Source: an uncultured Faecalibacterium sp. (lineage in GTDB: Bacteria; Bacillota; Clostridia; Oscillospirales; Ruminococcaceae). Taken from it: a stretch of 9,845 nt of DNA. The notes beneath the pieces were generated by a model, which searched no databases, was not told the origin of the DNA, and saw nothing but the letters and a program-made list of their open reading frames with translations. The number at the start of each line of letters is the position of its first letter. Within the stretch, counting starts at the first letter, position 1. The DNA lies in the NCBI GenBank assembly GCA_937915335.1, contig CALDLZ010000032.1, forward strand, positions 1 through 9,845, in the 5' to 3' direction. This document shows, piece by piece, positions 2,808 through 8,269 of the stretch. A program made the translations under genes and the position numbers.

Positions 2808-2837
2808 TTGACACGTTTTCCCTCGAAATGGTATAAT
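2808..2837 (+). promoter_or_regulatory. Consensus sigma-A promoter of the secreted CxxC protein gene
   Basis: TTGACA (2808-2813) and TATAAT (2832-2837) are both perfect consensus boxes with an 18-base spacer. The start is expected near 2844, giving an 80-nt leader before ATG at 2925. Confidence 0.9.
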
Positions 2838-2850
2838 CAGGCTGAAAAAA

Positions 2851-2891
2851 CAACGCGATAACGGCGAAAGGAACCAAATTTAACCGCGTTG
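2851..2891 (+). repeat. Inverted repeat in the 5' leader of the secreted CxxC protein gene
   Basis: CAACGCG (2851-2857) and CGCGTTG (2885-2891) are perfect 7-base complements flanking a 27-base loop that contains GCGAAAGGAACC. The hairpin would form at the very 5' end of the transcript. It has no U tract, so it is not a terminator. It may stabilise the messenger. Confidence 0.5.
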
Positions 2892-2924
2892 CCCCGCTGA
2901 GACGCAGGGAGAAAGGAATCTGTT

Positions 2925-3542
2925 ATGAGAAACCGTGTGCTGAAAGCCCTGGCAGCCTTTGGCCTGTCCGTCTGCGTGCTTGCGGGCAGTGCTGTGGTCG
3001 GCATGGCGGAAGAGAACCCGGACAAAACCGAGTGCAAGGAGCACGTCTGGAAGACCACGACAGAGTACAAGACTGAGTGCGTGGAGACCACCTTCCAGCA
3101 TAAGCTGCCCGACGGCACCACCGAGACGCTCACGCTCTGCCCCGAGTGTGGCAAGGTGAAGGACAATACCCAGCTGACCAAGGTGAACAATGTTTTTGCC
3201 AACTTCTCCGGCCTGACCGTTCACACCGGCACCCTGAAAAACGGCGAGCAGGTGATGACCGTCGCCTTCTACTTTCCCACCACCATTGAGCGGGTCGTCT
3301 GTGAGAAGTGCGGCACCGTGAAGAGCGAGGAGGTCACCCCCGCCCGCGTGATGACTTTCCCGGGCAGTGCCAACATCGAGATGCCCGCCAATGTCGTCTC
3401 CGGCTACACCCTGATGCGAGTGAACGCCGACGGCACCGAGACGCCGGTCAGCGTTTCCTACAACACCGAGCTGAACAAAGCCTACTTCCGGCTGGATGTC
3501 ACCACCGGTGCCCAGCTGCTGCGGATGGTGCCCACCGTCTGA
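2925..3542 (+). CDS. Secreted protein of unknown function with two CxxC pairs
   Basis: A 205-residue protein I cannot assign to a named family. It starts at ATG 2925 with GAAAGGA seven bases upstream. Residues 1-28 form a signal peptide (basic start, hydrophobic core, cleavage near GMA-EE), so it is probably exported. The mature part has six cysteines: Cys37 and Cys52, then CPEC at 72-75 and CEKC at 126-129. The two CxxC knuckles, each followed by Gly-x-Val-Lys, look like halves of a zinc ribbon separated by about 50 residues, and could bind metal or form disulphides. The C-terminal 60 residues are polar and beta-rich with no membrane anchor or sorting motif. It is a single-gene unit with a consensus promoter and its own terminator, so it may be well expressed. 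Confidence 0.88.
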   Translation: MRNRVLKALAAFGLSVCVLAGSAVVGMAEENPDKTECKEHVWKTTTEYKTECVETTFQHKLPDGTTETLTLCPECGKVKDNTQLTKVNNVFANFSGLTVHTGTLKNGEQVMTVAFYFPTTIERVVCEKCGTVKSEEVTPARVMTFPGSANIEMPANVVSGYTLMRVNADGTETPVSVSYNTELNKAYFRLDVTTGAQLLRMVPTV

Positions 3543-3556
3543 TCTTTCGCCCATAC

Positions 3557-3592
3557 AAAAACGAGACCGCCTTTTCGGACGGTCTCGTTTTT
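3557..3592. terminator. Bidirectional terminator between convergent genes
   Basis: AAAAACGAGACCG (3557-3569) pairs perfectly with CGGTCTCGTTTTT (3580-3592) around a 10-base loop. T tracts follow on both strands. It lies 14 bases after the secreted-protein stop and 2 bases beyond the stop of the convergent exporter operon, so it serves both. Confidence 0.92.
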
Positions 3593-3594
3593 GT

Positions 3595-4059
3595 TTATCC
3601 GTGATGTTTCTTCGGCAGGGGGATGCCCAGCACCAGTGCGATGCCCACGGCCAGCGCCACCGCGATTTTGAAGGTGGAGATGCCGTTGGCAAGAGAGAGG
3701 GCGTTGTTGCCCTGAATAAAGTAGTAGGCGGTGTAGTAGATCCCCGCGCCGGGCACCAGCGGGAAGATGCCGGAGAGCAGGAATACCGTCACCGGCGCTT
3801 TCAGCACAATGGCAAAGATGCGGGCCAATAACGTCAGCGGGATGACCGCCAGCAGCGAGGCCGCAAATGCTTCCAGCCCGAACAGCACCGCCACCTCGTA
3901 CACCAGCCAGCCCACGGCACCCACCAGCCCGCAGTAGGGCAGGGTGCGCTTGGGGCAGGCAAACAGGATCGCAAAGCTCAGGGTGCCCACCCCGGCCACA
4001 AGGAACTGCACCACCAACGGGCCGAACTGCCCCTTTAATAATAAAAGAACCTCTGTCAT
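3595..4059 (-). CDS. ThrE-type exporter, small membrane subunit (ThrE_2/DUF3815, YjjB-like)
   Basis: A 154-residue, almost entirely hydrophobic protein with about four or five membrane segments. The family hallmark SGIFPLVPGAG with PLVPG at 100-104 is present, followed by an aromatic-rich helix (YYTAYYF) and a basic tail (PKKHHG). In split ThrE systems this subunit pairs with a larger DUF1212 subunit to make one exporter; known relatives export threonine/serine (ThrE of Corynebacterium) or succinate (YjjPB of E. coli), so the substrate here is open. The start is ATG at 4059, which overlaps the stop of the large subunit in a 4-base ATGA, a sign of coupled translation. A longer in-frame extension to 4482 is only the shadow of the large-subunit gene. 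Confidence 0.92.
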   Translation of the reverse strand: MTEVLLLLKGQFGPLVVQFLVAGVGTLSFAILFACPKRTLPYCGLVGAVGWLVYEVAVLFGLEAFAASLLAVIPLTLLARIFAIVLKAPVTVFLLSGIFPLVPGAGIYYTAYYFIQGNNALSLANGISTFKIAVALAVGIALVLGIPLPKKHHG

Positions 4060-4942: not shown

Positions 4943-5042
4943 GAAAAAATGACCGCTTCAACGTTCCCCAACCTGAGCGGTCACTTTTCTTGTGACAACA
5001 TTATGGTAAGGAGCTAGTCGTTTGGTGGCCAGCGCCTTTTCA
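4943..5042 (-). ncRNA. Predicted small RNA or attenuated leader upstream of the exporter
   Basis: A near-perfect promoter (5077-5049) directs transcription leftward from about 5042, and an intrinsic terminator with U-rich end lies 60-100 bases on, giving an RNA of about 100 nt with no plausible coding content. Read as RNA it has a first stem of AAGGCGCU with AGCUCCUU (5038-5031 with 5015-5008, one mismatch) and the terminator stem. A small alternative hairpin, GUCAC (4996-4992) with GUGAC (4984-4980), overlaps the 5' arm of the terminator stem and would compete with it. It may be a free small RNA, for example the antisense partner of a type I toxin, or a leader whose read-through feeds the exporter genes. 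I cannot name a family with certainty. Confidence 0.6.
4944..4988. terminator. Bidirectional intrinsic terminator
   Basis: AAAAAATGACCGCT (4944-4957) pairs with AGCGGTCACTTTT (4976-4988) with at most one G-U pair, around an 18-base loop. The minus-strand product ends UUUUUUCUU and the plus-strand product ends CUUUUCUU, so both directions have a U-rich tail. It ends the predicted 100-nt RNA. No obvious intact plus-strand gene feeds into it. Confidence 0.8.
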
Positions 5043-5048
5043 ATTTGT

Positions 5049-5077
5049 AGTATAGTCAATTTTGCGCGGGTTGTCAA
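5049..5077 (-). promoter_or_regulatory. Near-consensus sigma-A promoter of the small RNA/leader
   Basis: On the minus strand TTGACA (5077-5072, perfect) and TATACT (5054-5049, five of six) are spaced by exactly 17 bases. No protein-coding start with a ribosome site lies close downstream, which is why a non-coding product is proposed. Confidence 0.85.
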
Positions 5078-5153
5078 GGCTCAACCCTTTTGTCACCTCC
5101 CCTACAATTTTTCCTCCATTTTTGTGCAACTCTCCAATTCTTTCTTGTCTTTA

Positions 5154-5184
5154 TTGACATAAAAAAAAAAAAAAAGTGTAGTAT
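5154..5184 (+). promoter_or_regulatory. Promoter of the surface-protein gene with a poly-A spacer
   Basis: A perfect -35 TTGACA (5154-5159) is followed by T, 15 A and then GTGTAGTAT. Two -10 candidates exist: TGTAGT at 5177-5182 with a 17-base spacer, or TAGTAT at 5179-5184 with a 19-base spacer, each matching four of six positions. The A run lies wholly inside the spacer, so gain or loss of A changes box spacing directly. Transcription should begin near 5190 and run through the riboswitch. Confidence 0.72.
5161..5175. repeat. Homopolymer tract of 15 A
   Basis: Fifteen uninterrupted A on the plus strand, the longest mononucleotide run I see in the window. It sits between the -35 and -10 boxes of the surface-protein promoter and is long enough for slipped-strand length changes. 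Confidence 0.97.
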
Positions 5185-5214
5185 TTTTATGTAAGATGCT
5201 ACCAAGCAAGAATT

Positions 5215-5290
5215 GAAGAATCGGCAAACCAGTCGAAAGGCTGCGACGCAAAGCTACAGGGCCTGTTATATGGCAGCCAGCTGCACTTTC
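5215..5290 (+). promoter_or_regulatory. Cyclic-di-GMP class I (GEMM-I) riboswitch aptamer
   Basis: The conserved core of the GEMM-I aptamer is readable in order: GGCAAACC (5223-5230), the stem CAGTC-GAAA-GGCTG (5230-5243) with its GNRA tetraloop, the invariant GACGCAAAGC (5245-5254) followed by TACAGGGCC, a variable loop, and GGCAGCC (5272-5278), the expected tetraloop-receptor side. The tetraloop, receptor arm and ligand-pocket bases are all present. The closing P1 stem is short: GCA 5224-5226 with TGC 5282-5284, perhaps extended by GAAG 5215-5218 with CTTC 5296-5299. It lies in the leader of the surface-protein gene and is followed about 60 bases later by an intrinsic terminator, so it should control transcription elongation in response to c-di-GMP. 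Confidence 0.9.
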
Positions 5291-5349
5291 TAATACTTCT
5301 CTCCCCATACGGTTGCATGGGAACACGGGAAAGTTCCAAAGTACATTTC

Positions 5350-5392
5350 AGAGCGTTGTACCAGCCTATCCGGCTGGTGCGGCGCTCTTTTT
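5350..5392 (+). terminator. Riboswitch expression-platform terminator
   Basis: AGAGCG...ACCAGCC (5350-5366) pairs with GGCTGGT...CGCTCT (5372-5388). Counting G-U pairs, the helix is 17 continuous base pairs closed by a five-base loop, then TTTTTGTTT. It ends 48 bases before the surface-protein start, so it must be bypassed for expression. Part of the aptamer 3' side (CAGCC 5274-5278 or CCAGC 5277-5281) is complementary to its 3' arm (GGCTG 5372-5376, GCTGG 5373-5377), a possible antiterminator pairing. Whether ligand turns expression on or off cannot be settled by eye. Confidence 0.9.
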
Positions 5393-5440
5393 GTTTGGCG
5401 GCAAAGGGTCATTTGGGAGTATACACAAAGGAGGATCACT

Positions 5441-8269
5441 ATGAAAAAGCGGTTGGTCAGTCTCTTACTGGCGTTCAGTATGATGCTGACTTTTTTGCCG
5501 GCAATTCCTATATCAGCAGCAGCTGGTCAGAACACAACCACAATAGTGACAATTGACGGATGCACATATACATTAGATGAAGCCACTCACAAGGCCACAG
5601 TAACGCATTATGCTCCAACAAGAAATTCTTCCAGCTCAAAGAGGGCATTTGAGATTCTCTCTAAAGTTACGAAAGAGGGAGATTCCACCCCTTATACCGT
5701 AACAGCAATTGGGAAGAATGCCTTTGCTAACGTTGAATCAAATACTGCATATGACGTAAATGATATCTTGACTGGAATTACAATTCCCGATACTATTACA
5801 GAAATTGGTGAATATGCGTTCTGGGGTTGTCAGGGACTAACCAAAATCCAAATCCCCGCTTCGGTCAAAACAATTGGAAACTATGCTTTTTACAATTGCA
5901 CCAATTTGCAGAAGATCGTATTCCCGGAAGGTGTCACCCAAATTGGAGTATCTGTAGTAGGTTATAACACCAAATATACAAGTTTCCTGACTGAAGTTGT
6001 AGTTCCCAGTACAATAGATAACTCAGGCAATAATAGCGGCATGGATACTTCTTTTTCAGGCGCTTCCTTAACGACTGTCACCTTAACATCGGGGTTAGAA
6101 ATAATTGATTCGCGTGCTTTCAAGAACTGTAAAAACCTGAAGCAAATCAATATTCCAGCGAGTGTAAAGCAAATCCGTGATAATGCATTTAACGGTTCCG
6201 GTCTGGAATCCCTTGATTTTAAAGGCTCAAGCGAAATTTCCAGCTTTGCTTTTAAAAACTGCGAGAGCCTTAAAGATGTAACTGTCGAGTGCCGGTGGCT
6301 TGGTACGTCTGCATTTGAAGGATGTGCGGTGCTGACCAAAGTAGTTCTGTCTAGCAATGTTAAAACCATTCAAAACAATGCATTCAGGGATTGCACTAAT
6401 CTATCTGATGTAAAGTACAATGGTTACAAAAATGATTGGGATGCTGTTTGGACGAACTACTCCTCTAGTAAATCTGGCAATGAAACGCTGATTGACAAGG
6501 CGCAGTACCTTTGTGACATCAATTTTGATTTGAATGGCGGTACGATAAACGGCAGTGATGCAATTGCCAAACAGACTGTTTACAGCAAGGAAAAACTGAG
6601 CGAAGCAAATTGCTATGATAGCAAGCAGAATGATAAAGCATTTGTGATTCCTGCTGACCCGGTAAGAGAAGGCTGCACCTTTACTGGATGGTATAAAGAA
6701 GGCGAATCGACCCCTGTTACAAGCCTTGCTGAATATGCCGCCGATGACAATGTAACCTTTACCGCCGGTTGGGCAAAAACTTACAAGGTAACGTTTGATG
6801 GCAATGCAAATGGTGATACCGTAACCGGAATACCGGATGAACAGGTAGTCAATGAAAACGCCAATGCAACCAGCCCCAATACAGAACCACAGCGTATTGG
6901 CTATGATTTTGATGGCTGGTATGCCACTGCGGATGGCAACAGGAAATACACGTTTACGGAAGCCGTAAACGCAGACACTACCCTGTATGCCCATTGGAAG
7001 GCACACAACTATAACGTGACGCTGGATAATGATGGAAACAAGGAAACGAATCCGTACGATTATGGTGCCACTGTAACCGTTCCCACCCCCGCAAAAAAGA
7101 GTGGTTACAACTTTAATAGCTGGGATGTAACTGTACCCGAAGGTAAGACTGCACCGGCATTGAATGGCCCGGATGCAGACGGCAAGTACAGCTTTACGAT
7201 GCCGGACAACGAAGTGACTCTGACCGCAAAATGGACGCAGAAGGATGTAATTGACCCGGATGTTGACCTGAAATTTGACCCGGCGACTGGGGAAGTGACA
7301 TCGAATAACCCGAATGTCAAGGATAGCGATATTGTGAACAAGAAGGTTTACGATGAAAACGGAAATGAGGTTCCAAGTGACAAGCTGAATGAGAAAGGAT
7401 TGCCCACCGAACCGGGTGATTACATCATTAAAGTAGATGTCAAGGAAACCGATGCGACTGCTCCCGCTGACCAAATTACCGGTAATCAACCTCAATGGAA
7501 ATATAATGTTCCTAAGAAGGAAAAACCGAGTGATAACACGGATAAAGACAACCACGGCAAGGATGACCCCACACCCAAGCGTAAGCTGGATGTCGCCGAT
7601 GGCACCATTACCAAGGTCGTGGACAAGGATGGTAAGGATATCACCGACACCATCACCAAAGATGCCGACGGCAAGTATGAAATTCCCACAGGTGCTACTG
7701 TGACCATCACCGCCAAGGATGCCCCCGAAGGCATGAAATTTGGCGAGTGGACGATCAGTGATAAAAACCTGCTGGGCGACCCCGATGTTCCCTACACGGA
7801 GAAAGACCTGACCTTTACCATGCCGGATAATAAGGATGGCGTGAGTGTCAGTGTGGTCTATCTGGAAGAGAGCATTGGCGAAGAGCCCAACTTGCTCGAA
7901 AAGGGTGCTGTTGCTGGCACAGTCATCGTCGGCAGTGCAGCTCTGCTCTATCAGAGCCACATGCTGGGCACTGAGCTGTACCTGCGCTACCTGCTGCCCC
8001 ACGGGGCCATTATCCCGCAGAACCGTGCGGAACTGGCCGTCCTGCTGTGGCAGGATGCCGGGAACCCTGAACCGGTAAGCACTGCCCTTTACAGCGATAT
8101 CAGCGATGAGGACAGTGCCATCCAGCAGGCCGCCCGCTGGGCCGTGGAAAACGACCTGCTTGAGCTGTTGGACGAGGGTGAACACGCCGACCACTTCGAC
8201 CCGTTTGTGCCCGTAACTTTCACGGATTCTATCCACGCATGGAAAAAGGCACAGGAGTTGAAGAAATAA
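5441..8269 (+). CDS. Large secreted surface protein: BspA-type LRRs, InlB-type repeats, SLH-like C-terminus
   Basis: A 942-residue probable adhesin. ATG at 5441 follows AGGAGG by six bases. Residues 1-27 are a Sec signal peptide. Residues about 88-330 hold BspA-type (LRR_5) repeats, seen as recurring IPASVKTIGNYAFYNCTNL-like units, for example at 115-137, 138-160, 216-238, 239-261 and 286-325. Three InlB/Flg_new-type repeats follow at about 358-445, 447-520 and 523-600, with the typical Gly-Trp-Tyr and ThrLeuTyrAlaHisTrp-like ends. A further beta domain (605-690), a charged Lys/Asp/Pro linker (690-716) and a divergent repeat (716-808) lead to a hydrophobic segment (821-838) and a single SLH-like module (843-942, with RAELAVLLWQDAG, YSDI, ARWAVENDLL). 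There is no LPXTG motif, so anchoring would rely on the hydrophobic segment and SLH-like end. BspA-type proteins commonly bind host or bacterial surfaces; the ligand here is unknown. Confidence 0.93.
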   Translation: MKKRLVSLLLAFSMMLTFLPAIPISAAAGQNTTTIVTIDGCTYTLDEATHKATVTHYAPTRNSSSSKRAFEILSKVTKEGDSTPYTVTAIGKNAFANVESNTAYDVNDILTGITIPDTITEIGEYAFWGCQGLTKIQIPASVKTIGNYAFYNCTNLQKIVFPEGVTQIGVSVVGYNTKYTSFLTEVVVPSTIDNSGNNSGMDTSFSGASLTTVTLTSGLEIIDSRAFKNCKNLKQINIPASVKQIRDNAFNGSGLESLDFKGSSEISSFAFKNCESLKDVTVECRWLGTSAFEGCAVLTKVVLSSNVKTIQNNAFRDCTNLSDVKYNGYKNDWDAVWTNYSSSKSGNETLIDKAQYLCDINFDLNGGTINGSDAIAKQTVYSKEKLSEANCYDSKQNDKAFVIPADPVREGCTFTGWYKEGESTPVTSLAEYAADDNVTFTAGWAKTYKVTFDGNANGDTVTGIPDEQVVNENANATSPNTEPQRIGYDFDGWYATADGNRKYTFTEAVNADTTLYAHWKAHNYNVTLDNDGNKETNPYDYGATVTVPTPAKKSGYNFNSWDVTVPEGKTAPALNGPDADGKYSFTMPDNEVTLTAKWTQKDVIDPDVDLKFDPATGEVTSNNPNVKDSDIVNKKVYDENGNEVPSDKLNEKGLPTEPGDYIIKVDVKETDATAPADQITGNQPQWKYNVPKKEKPSDNTDKDNHGKDDPTPKRKLDVADGTITKVVDKDGKDITDTITKDADGKYEIPTGATVTITAKDAPEGMKFGEWTISDKNLLGDPDVPYTEKDLTFTMPDNKDGVSVSVVYLEESIGEEPNLLEKGAVAGTVIVGSAALLYQSHMLGTELYLRYLLPHGAIIPQNRAELAVLLWQDAGNPEPVSTALYSDISDEDSAIQQAARWAVENDLLELLDEGEHADHFDPFVPVTFTDSIHAWKKAQELKK

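Follow-up and report, generated by a model that had tools for sequence, protein, structure and literature searches.

A homopolymer tract within the presumed promoter of a riboswitch-led surface-protein gene from Faecalibacterium: a candidate two-switch arrangement

Organization of the locus

The window, meaning the whole 9,845-nt stretch of DNA analyzed here, has a GC content of 54%. Its protein domains indicate amino-acid ABC transporter-like, ThrE-type exporter-like and MatE transporter-like products along with a 942-aa secreted protein. Comparisons were made with 31 genomes of the nearest genus, which by inference is Faecalibacterium. Bacteria of this genus rank among the most abundant commensals of the human gut. 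Over the ABC operon, the window and genome G176 are 87% identical, and a Faecalibacterium duncaniae leucine-rich repeat protein was 41% identical among the matches listed in a protein search. Searching 247 genomes, including G176, with the adhesin protein at E 1e-40 (at most three candidates scored per listed genome) gave no match, and the exact leader start was found in none of the viral contigs searched.

The presumed promoter occupies the gap between the divergent ThrE gene and the gene for the 942-aa protein. The features from this promoter through the gene are as follows, with A20 and A7 denoting related leaders described in the next section.

5154..5159, plus strand: presumed -35 hexamer TTGACA, also present in the aligned A20 and A7 relatives
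5160, plus strand: T
5161..5175, plus strand: homopolymer of 15 A (A15), inside the presumed 19-nt spacer (5160-5178)
5176-5178, plus strand: GTG
5179..5184, plus strand: presumed -10 hexamer TAGTAT, aligned with TATGAT of the A20 relative
5177-5182, plus strand: alternative -10 TGTAGT, giving a spacer of 17
5213..5288, plus strand: c-di-GMP-I riboswitch aptamer (RF01051), 55.1 bits against a curated cut-off of 35, E 7.7e-9
5239..5249, plus strand: aptamer strand GGCTGCGACGC, candidate antiterminator strand, chosen after its match with the terminator 5' arm was seen; 13 of 1000 shuffled arms gave as strong a duplex
5350..5388, plus strand: intrinsic terminator by prediction and sequence, a 17-bp stem then TTTTGTTT
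5429..5434, plus strand: ribosome binding site AGGAGG
5441..8269, plus strand: 942-aa surface protein with ATG at 5441, a signal-peptide-like start (by eye), BspA-type LRRs, and List_Bact_rpt and InlB-type repeats

The terminator lies between aptamer and gene and is the predicted expression platform. The gene itself is intact. Its product combines BspA-type LRRs with Listeria-Bacteroides/InlB-type repeats and ends in a C-terminal domain common to its relatives; matches to the LRR adhesin and internalin models fall far below the curated cut-offs.

Two further elements of the window were recorded. A dispersed unit upstream of ThrE, on the minus strand from 5079 to ~4899, consists of a TTGACA-17-TATACT promoter, a short hairpin and a strong U-tracted hairpin. 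It recurs at L230 and L235-L238, with ~40 matches to this stretch listed across the 31 genomes; it has no match in Rfam at E up to 1 and is a candidate multicopy small RNA or attenuator. On the plus strand (2808-3542), a promoter matching the consensus at 12 of 12 positions (TTGACA-18-TATAAT) precedes the gene for a secreted-looking protein of 205 aa, which lacks Pfam matches and has only weak, zinc-finger-like NCBIfam matches. A match to sraL at 3558-3690 on the minus strand was set aside at 29.9 against a cut-off of 39.

Homopolymers in the promoters of related genes

An earlier note on this DNA had described TTGACA, T, A15, GTG and TAGTAT with a spacer of 19, and TGTAGT with a spacer of 17; re-reading the sequence confirmed each letter and distance. 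A long simple repeat separates the two predicted hexamers. TATGAT at the aligned place in the A20 relative lends some support to TAGTAT as the -10. A promoter scan allowing spacers of 16-18 does not report the site. Within the window A15 is the sole run of at least nine A or T, or at least seven G or C. Runs of 15 or more arose in 7 of 20,000 simulations under a first-order Markov model of 4962-5440, which was trained on that region with the tract included. Among the 31 genomes, runs of A12 or longer occur in four, at 12 places, one of which is the A20 promoter. Six others were read: four, including a second in G618, adjoin an inverted repeat, as would be seen with a terminator T-tract on the opposite strand, and two do not. 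The pattern TTGA-N1-4-A10 is found at one place only in these genomes, the promoter of a related c-di-GMP riboswitch leader.

The RF01051 search returned 30 aptamers in 13 of the 31 genomes, and their leaders were compared with that of the window by reading. One leader type shares the terminator core GGTGCGGCG. It has seven members: the window leader, five from G618, a genome in one 3.1-Mb contig, and one from G623. The seventh, L228, was identified through DNA similarity to the window leader and not through its tract, and its aptamer scores 26 bits, below the cut-off. With -35 and -10 hexamers chosen by eye, a homopolymer run of at least six lies in the presumed spacer of all seven (A15, A20, A7, G6, G8, G11 and G11).

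Window: T-A15-GTG, spacer 19
L106: A19-GTTT, spacer 23 (A20 counting the last A of the -35)
L114: A6-GAG, spacer 9 (run A7)
L111: nine bases then G6, spacer 15
L113: G11, spacer 19
L107: G11, spacer 20
L228: G8, spacer 15

Tract length thus differs between related loci, which are different genes and species rather than alleles. Presumed spacers extend from 9 to 23 and in none of the seven measure 16-18; for the A7 leader the -10, TATTTT at spacer 9, is a weak guess. The occurrence of A and G at the same place argues for a role of length rather than A-specific bending. Runs of at least seven within 75 nt upstream mark 6/7 of these leaders vs 2/25 other c-di-GMP-I leaders (Fisher p 2e-4); the corresponding counts are 7/7 vs 10/25 for runs of at least six (p 0.008) and 5/7 vs 1/25 for runs of at least eight. 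One of the 2/25, L087 in G624, reads TTGACA-CC-G10-TATGC-TATACT with a spacer of 17.

The leaders of the window, L106 and L114 precede genes for LRR proteins, and those of L113 and L107 precede genes for beta-helix proteins. L228 is followed by an 885-aa protein without a convincing Pfam match. L111 leads into a 118-aa ORF (L116, 7591-7947, minus strand) that starts like the protein of L114 and is followed by unrelated ORFs; the gene behind this leader is a surface-protein gene reduced to this ORF. The end of a 5S rRNA gene lies shortly upstream of the G8 promoter (L228, 5067-5183). Elsewhere, tandem c-di-GMP-I aptamers ~100-130 nt apart were seen at L121, L122 and the G623 locus (L091, L098), behind ordinary-looking promoters; where read, they precede genes for CAP-domain proteins, assigned by Pfam for L121 and similar by eye for L122.

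Promoters with poly-G tracts are more widespread. Eleven of the 31 genomes contain a run of at least G8 with TATAMT no more than 7 nt beyond it, against 1 of 31 for the reversed control pattern. Twenty such sites were read, four of them too near a contig end; by eye, the genes behind the other 16 start like signal-peptide proteins or lipoproteins in 14 cases and have other membrane-like starts in two. The pattern TTGACACC-Gn-TATG(C/T)TATA(A/C)T defines 39 promoters in six genomes with spacers of 13 to 17, where n is 6 (two promoters), 7 (three), 8 (24), 9 (seven) or 10 (three). Their -10 is an extended -10 of the TGNTATAAT type, for which a well-placed -35 may be unnecessary, and it is accordingly less certain that they depend on spacing.

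Over its last 150 aa the window protein shares 43-46% identity with three riboswitch-controlled proteins of G618 and three proteins of G627. An alignment of these C-terminal domains, with six seed members, was used as a search query and gave 57 matches in 12 of the 31 genomes; upstream DNA was taken for 55. Long runs, defined as at least nine A or T or at least seven G or C, lie upstream of 21/55 family members vs 6/195 control genes from regions around riboswitches, ThrE, the ABC operon or a repeat (p 5e-11; this and the following p values are optimistic because paralogues are not independent). Four of the six control cases are tracts already named, three viewed from a divergent gene and one being L087 itself. 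A run close before TANNNT was found in 16/55 family members vs 7/195 controls (p 3e-7). Long runs persist in 16/49 members without the six seeds (p 2e-8) and in 12/40 without the seeds and G627 (p 1e-6), and 34/55 members have no long run upstream. Six genes for proteins with this C-terminal domain (L302, L303, L306, L308, L311 and L317) carry poly-C tracts of C7 to C11 in the form ATA-Cn-GTAAA, 36 to 45 nt before the called start.

Leader folding and the proposed control

In all seven leaders the terminator 5' arm is complementary to the aptamer strand GGCUGCGACGC (GGCUGUGACGC in L228), with 5 to 34 of 1000 shuffles as strong. We forced the aptamer fold and read the mean upstream pairing of the terminator 5' arm at the first truncation point. 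This constraint is crude, and it is imperfect for A20 and A7. Arm pairing fell from 0.65 to 0.33 in the window, from 0.72 to 0.27 in the G6 leader, from 0.63 to 0.44 and from 0.65 to 0.41 in the two G11 leaders, and from 0.62 to 0.45 in the imperfectly constrained A7 leader. It went from 0.57 to 0.58 in the imperfectly constrained A20 leader and stayed at 0.20 in the G8 leader. For the full leader, terminator probability under the forced aptamer shifted clearly only in G6, from 0.21 to 0.85. GGDEF domains are encoded in 30 of the 31 genomes. That c-di-GMP switches the gene off is the preferred guess rather than a demonstrated outcome.

Dual control of the gene is likely, because A15 lies in the presumed promoter and the leader has both a c-di-GMP-I match and a terminator. 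The earlier note had proposed a phase-variable switch at the promoter. That proposal draws partial support from a spacer homopolymer in the promoter of a surface-protein gene and from related genes with the same layout, other lengths and G in place of A. It overlooked two elements that lie between promoter and gene, the c-di-GMP-I riboswitch and the terminator, so that expression would not depend on promoter strength alone.

We hypothesize, as the probable explanation, that a slippage-variable promoter feeds a c-di-GMP riboswitch predicted to terminate transcription when c-di-GMP is bound. Tract length would change within a strain by slipped-strand mispairing, a process established for tracts of this kind in other species (PMC2715451, PMC10502178), and set promoter strength at random. 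The usual optimum for a promoter spacer is ~17. A spacer near this value would therefore give the strong state, and the window allele, at 19 nt, would have low or intermediate strength. In RNA without bound ligand, the aptamer strand would capture the terminator 5' arm and permit readthrough; bound c-di-GMP would lock the aptamer, so that the terminator forms and transcription stops. The outcome would be a random subset of cells with the capacity to produce the protein, and this only at low c-di-GMP. Against this two-switch reading, none of the seven presumed spacers measures 16-18, 34/55 family members lack a long upstream run, the A20 relative is at a different place (~15 kb from ThrE in G618), 24 of the 39 poly-G promoters have the same length (G8), and folding support for the off-switch is uneven.

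The same two-switch design could instead respond to c-di-GMP by turning on, if the P1 helix of the bound aptamer frees a pre-terminator segment that pairs with the terminator 5' arm; we consider this rather unlikely. An on-switch would suit an adhesin, and the Clostridioides difficile class II riboswitch before cmrRST activates (PMC8844915). By eye, both P1-like pairing and a local hairpin (GUACAAAACGC/GCGUUGUAC) fit the sequences of the A20 and G8 leaders. However, in the remaining leaders this hairpin is weak or absent whereas aptamer-strand pairing occurs in 7/7, and at the first truncation point none of the seven showed a rise in mean upstream arm pairing of more than 0.01 when the aptamer was forced.

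It is likewise doubtful that the tract is a fixed promoter feature, whether bent or stiff DNA or a tolerated run, with the present spacing functional and the riboswitch alone regulating. The prevalence of one length (G8) among the poly-G promoters fits such a role, as does the meningococcal nspA promoter, whose A tract acts without -35/-10 spacing as the cause (PMC6389960). A fixed structural role nevertheless explains poorly the exchange of G for A at the same place and presumed spacers of 9 to 23 in the seven leaders. A tract length produced by sequencing or assembly error, or by chance, is very improbable: homopolymer lengths are error-prone and the G627 draft has a distrusted G39 run at a contig end, but runs this long were rare in simulation, a run is present in all seven leaders, of which five belong to a single-contig genome, and the enrichment persists without G627.

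At the level of the genus, Faecalibacterium might possess a contingency system that switches families of surface proteins and lipoproteins through A, G and C homopolymers next to the -10. One branch would be gated serially by c-di-GMP riboswitches, giving each gene an AND logic of chance and signal. We regard the case for and against this wider system as evenly balanced. If slippage and c-di-GMP do switch the surface proteins of Faecalibacterium, strain and cell differences in host contact could be readable from tract lengths in existing metagenomes, and the DNA inversion of C. difficile would be joined by a second means of linking random switching with a c-di-GMP riboswitch.

Relation to known systems

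Slippage promoters and c-di-GMP riboswitches are both known; the proposed arrangement of the two in series would be new. Among the matches listed from open-licence PMC literature, at the level of titles and abstract openings, we recognized no slippage promoter feeding a riboswitch, and for Faecalibacterium neither homopolymer or slippage phase variation nor a c-di-GMP riboswitch.

Promoter-region homopolymers of surface-protein genes have two close precedents. In Mycoplasma hyorhinis, on/off expression of the vlp surface lipoprotein genes is tied to indels in a promoter-region poly-A (review PMC10502178), and the window shares a poly-A tract in the promoter region of a surface-protein gene. 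The passage on vlp in that review mentions no riboswitch, and relatives of the window gene also use G or C tracts. Helicobacter pylori sabA has a promoter-region poly-T that varies within a strain, with 13-16 T in 26695, and ArsRS as a second layer (PMC2715451). An adhesin-type gene, a promoter-region homopolymer and a second layer, signal-responsive in sabA and predicted to be so in the window, are common to both, but in sabA that layer is a protein two-component system rather than an RNA sensor, and a CT repeat lies in the coding part.

Phase variation also accompanies a c-di-GMP riboswitch within one leader in C. difficile cmrRST, where the riboswitch is of the activating class II, the variable part is an invertible element and the two act independently (PMC8844915). 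The nearest counterpart is the C. difficile flgB leader, which contains the c-di-GMP-I riboswitch Cd1 and the invertible flagellar switch (PMC5386303, PMC8844915). Cd1 is of the off-switch type (PMC5386303). Like the arrangement proposed for the window, flgB has two controls in series on a single transcript, a class I c-di-GMP riboswitch acting by premature termination and a random DNA switch (PMC5386303, PMC8844915). In flgB, however, the switch is a recombinase inversion located downstream of the riboswitch, after the transcription start, whereas in the window it would be a homopolymer in the presumed promoter, upstream of the riboswitch, and the gene encodes a surface protein.
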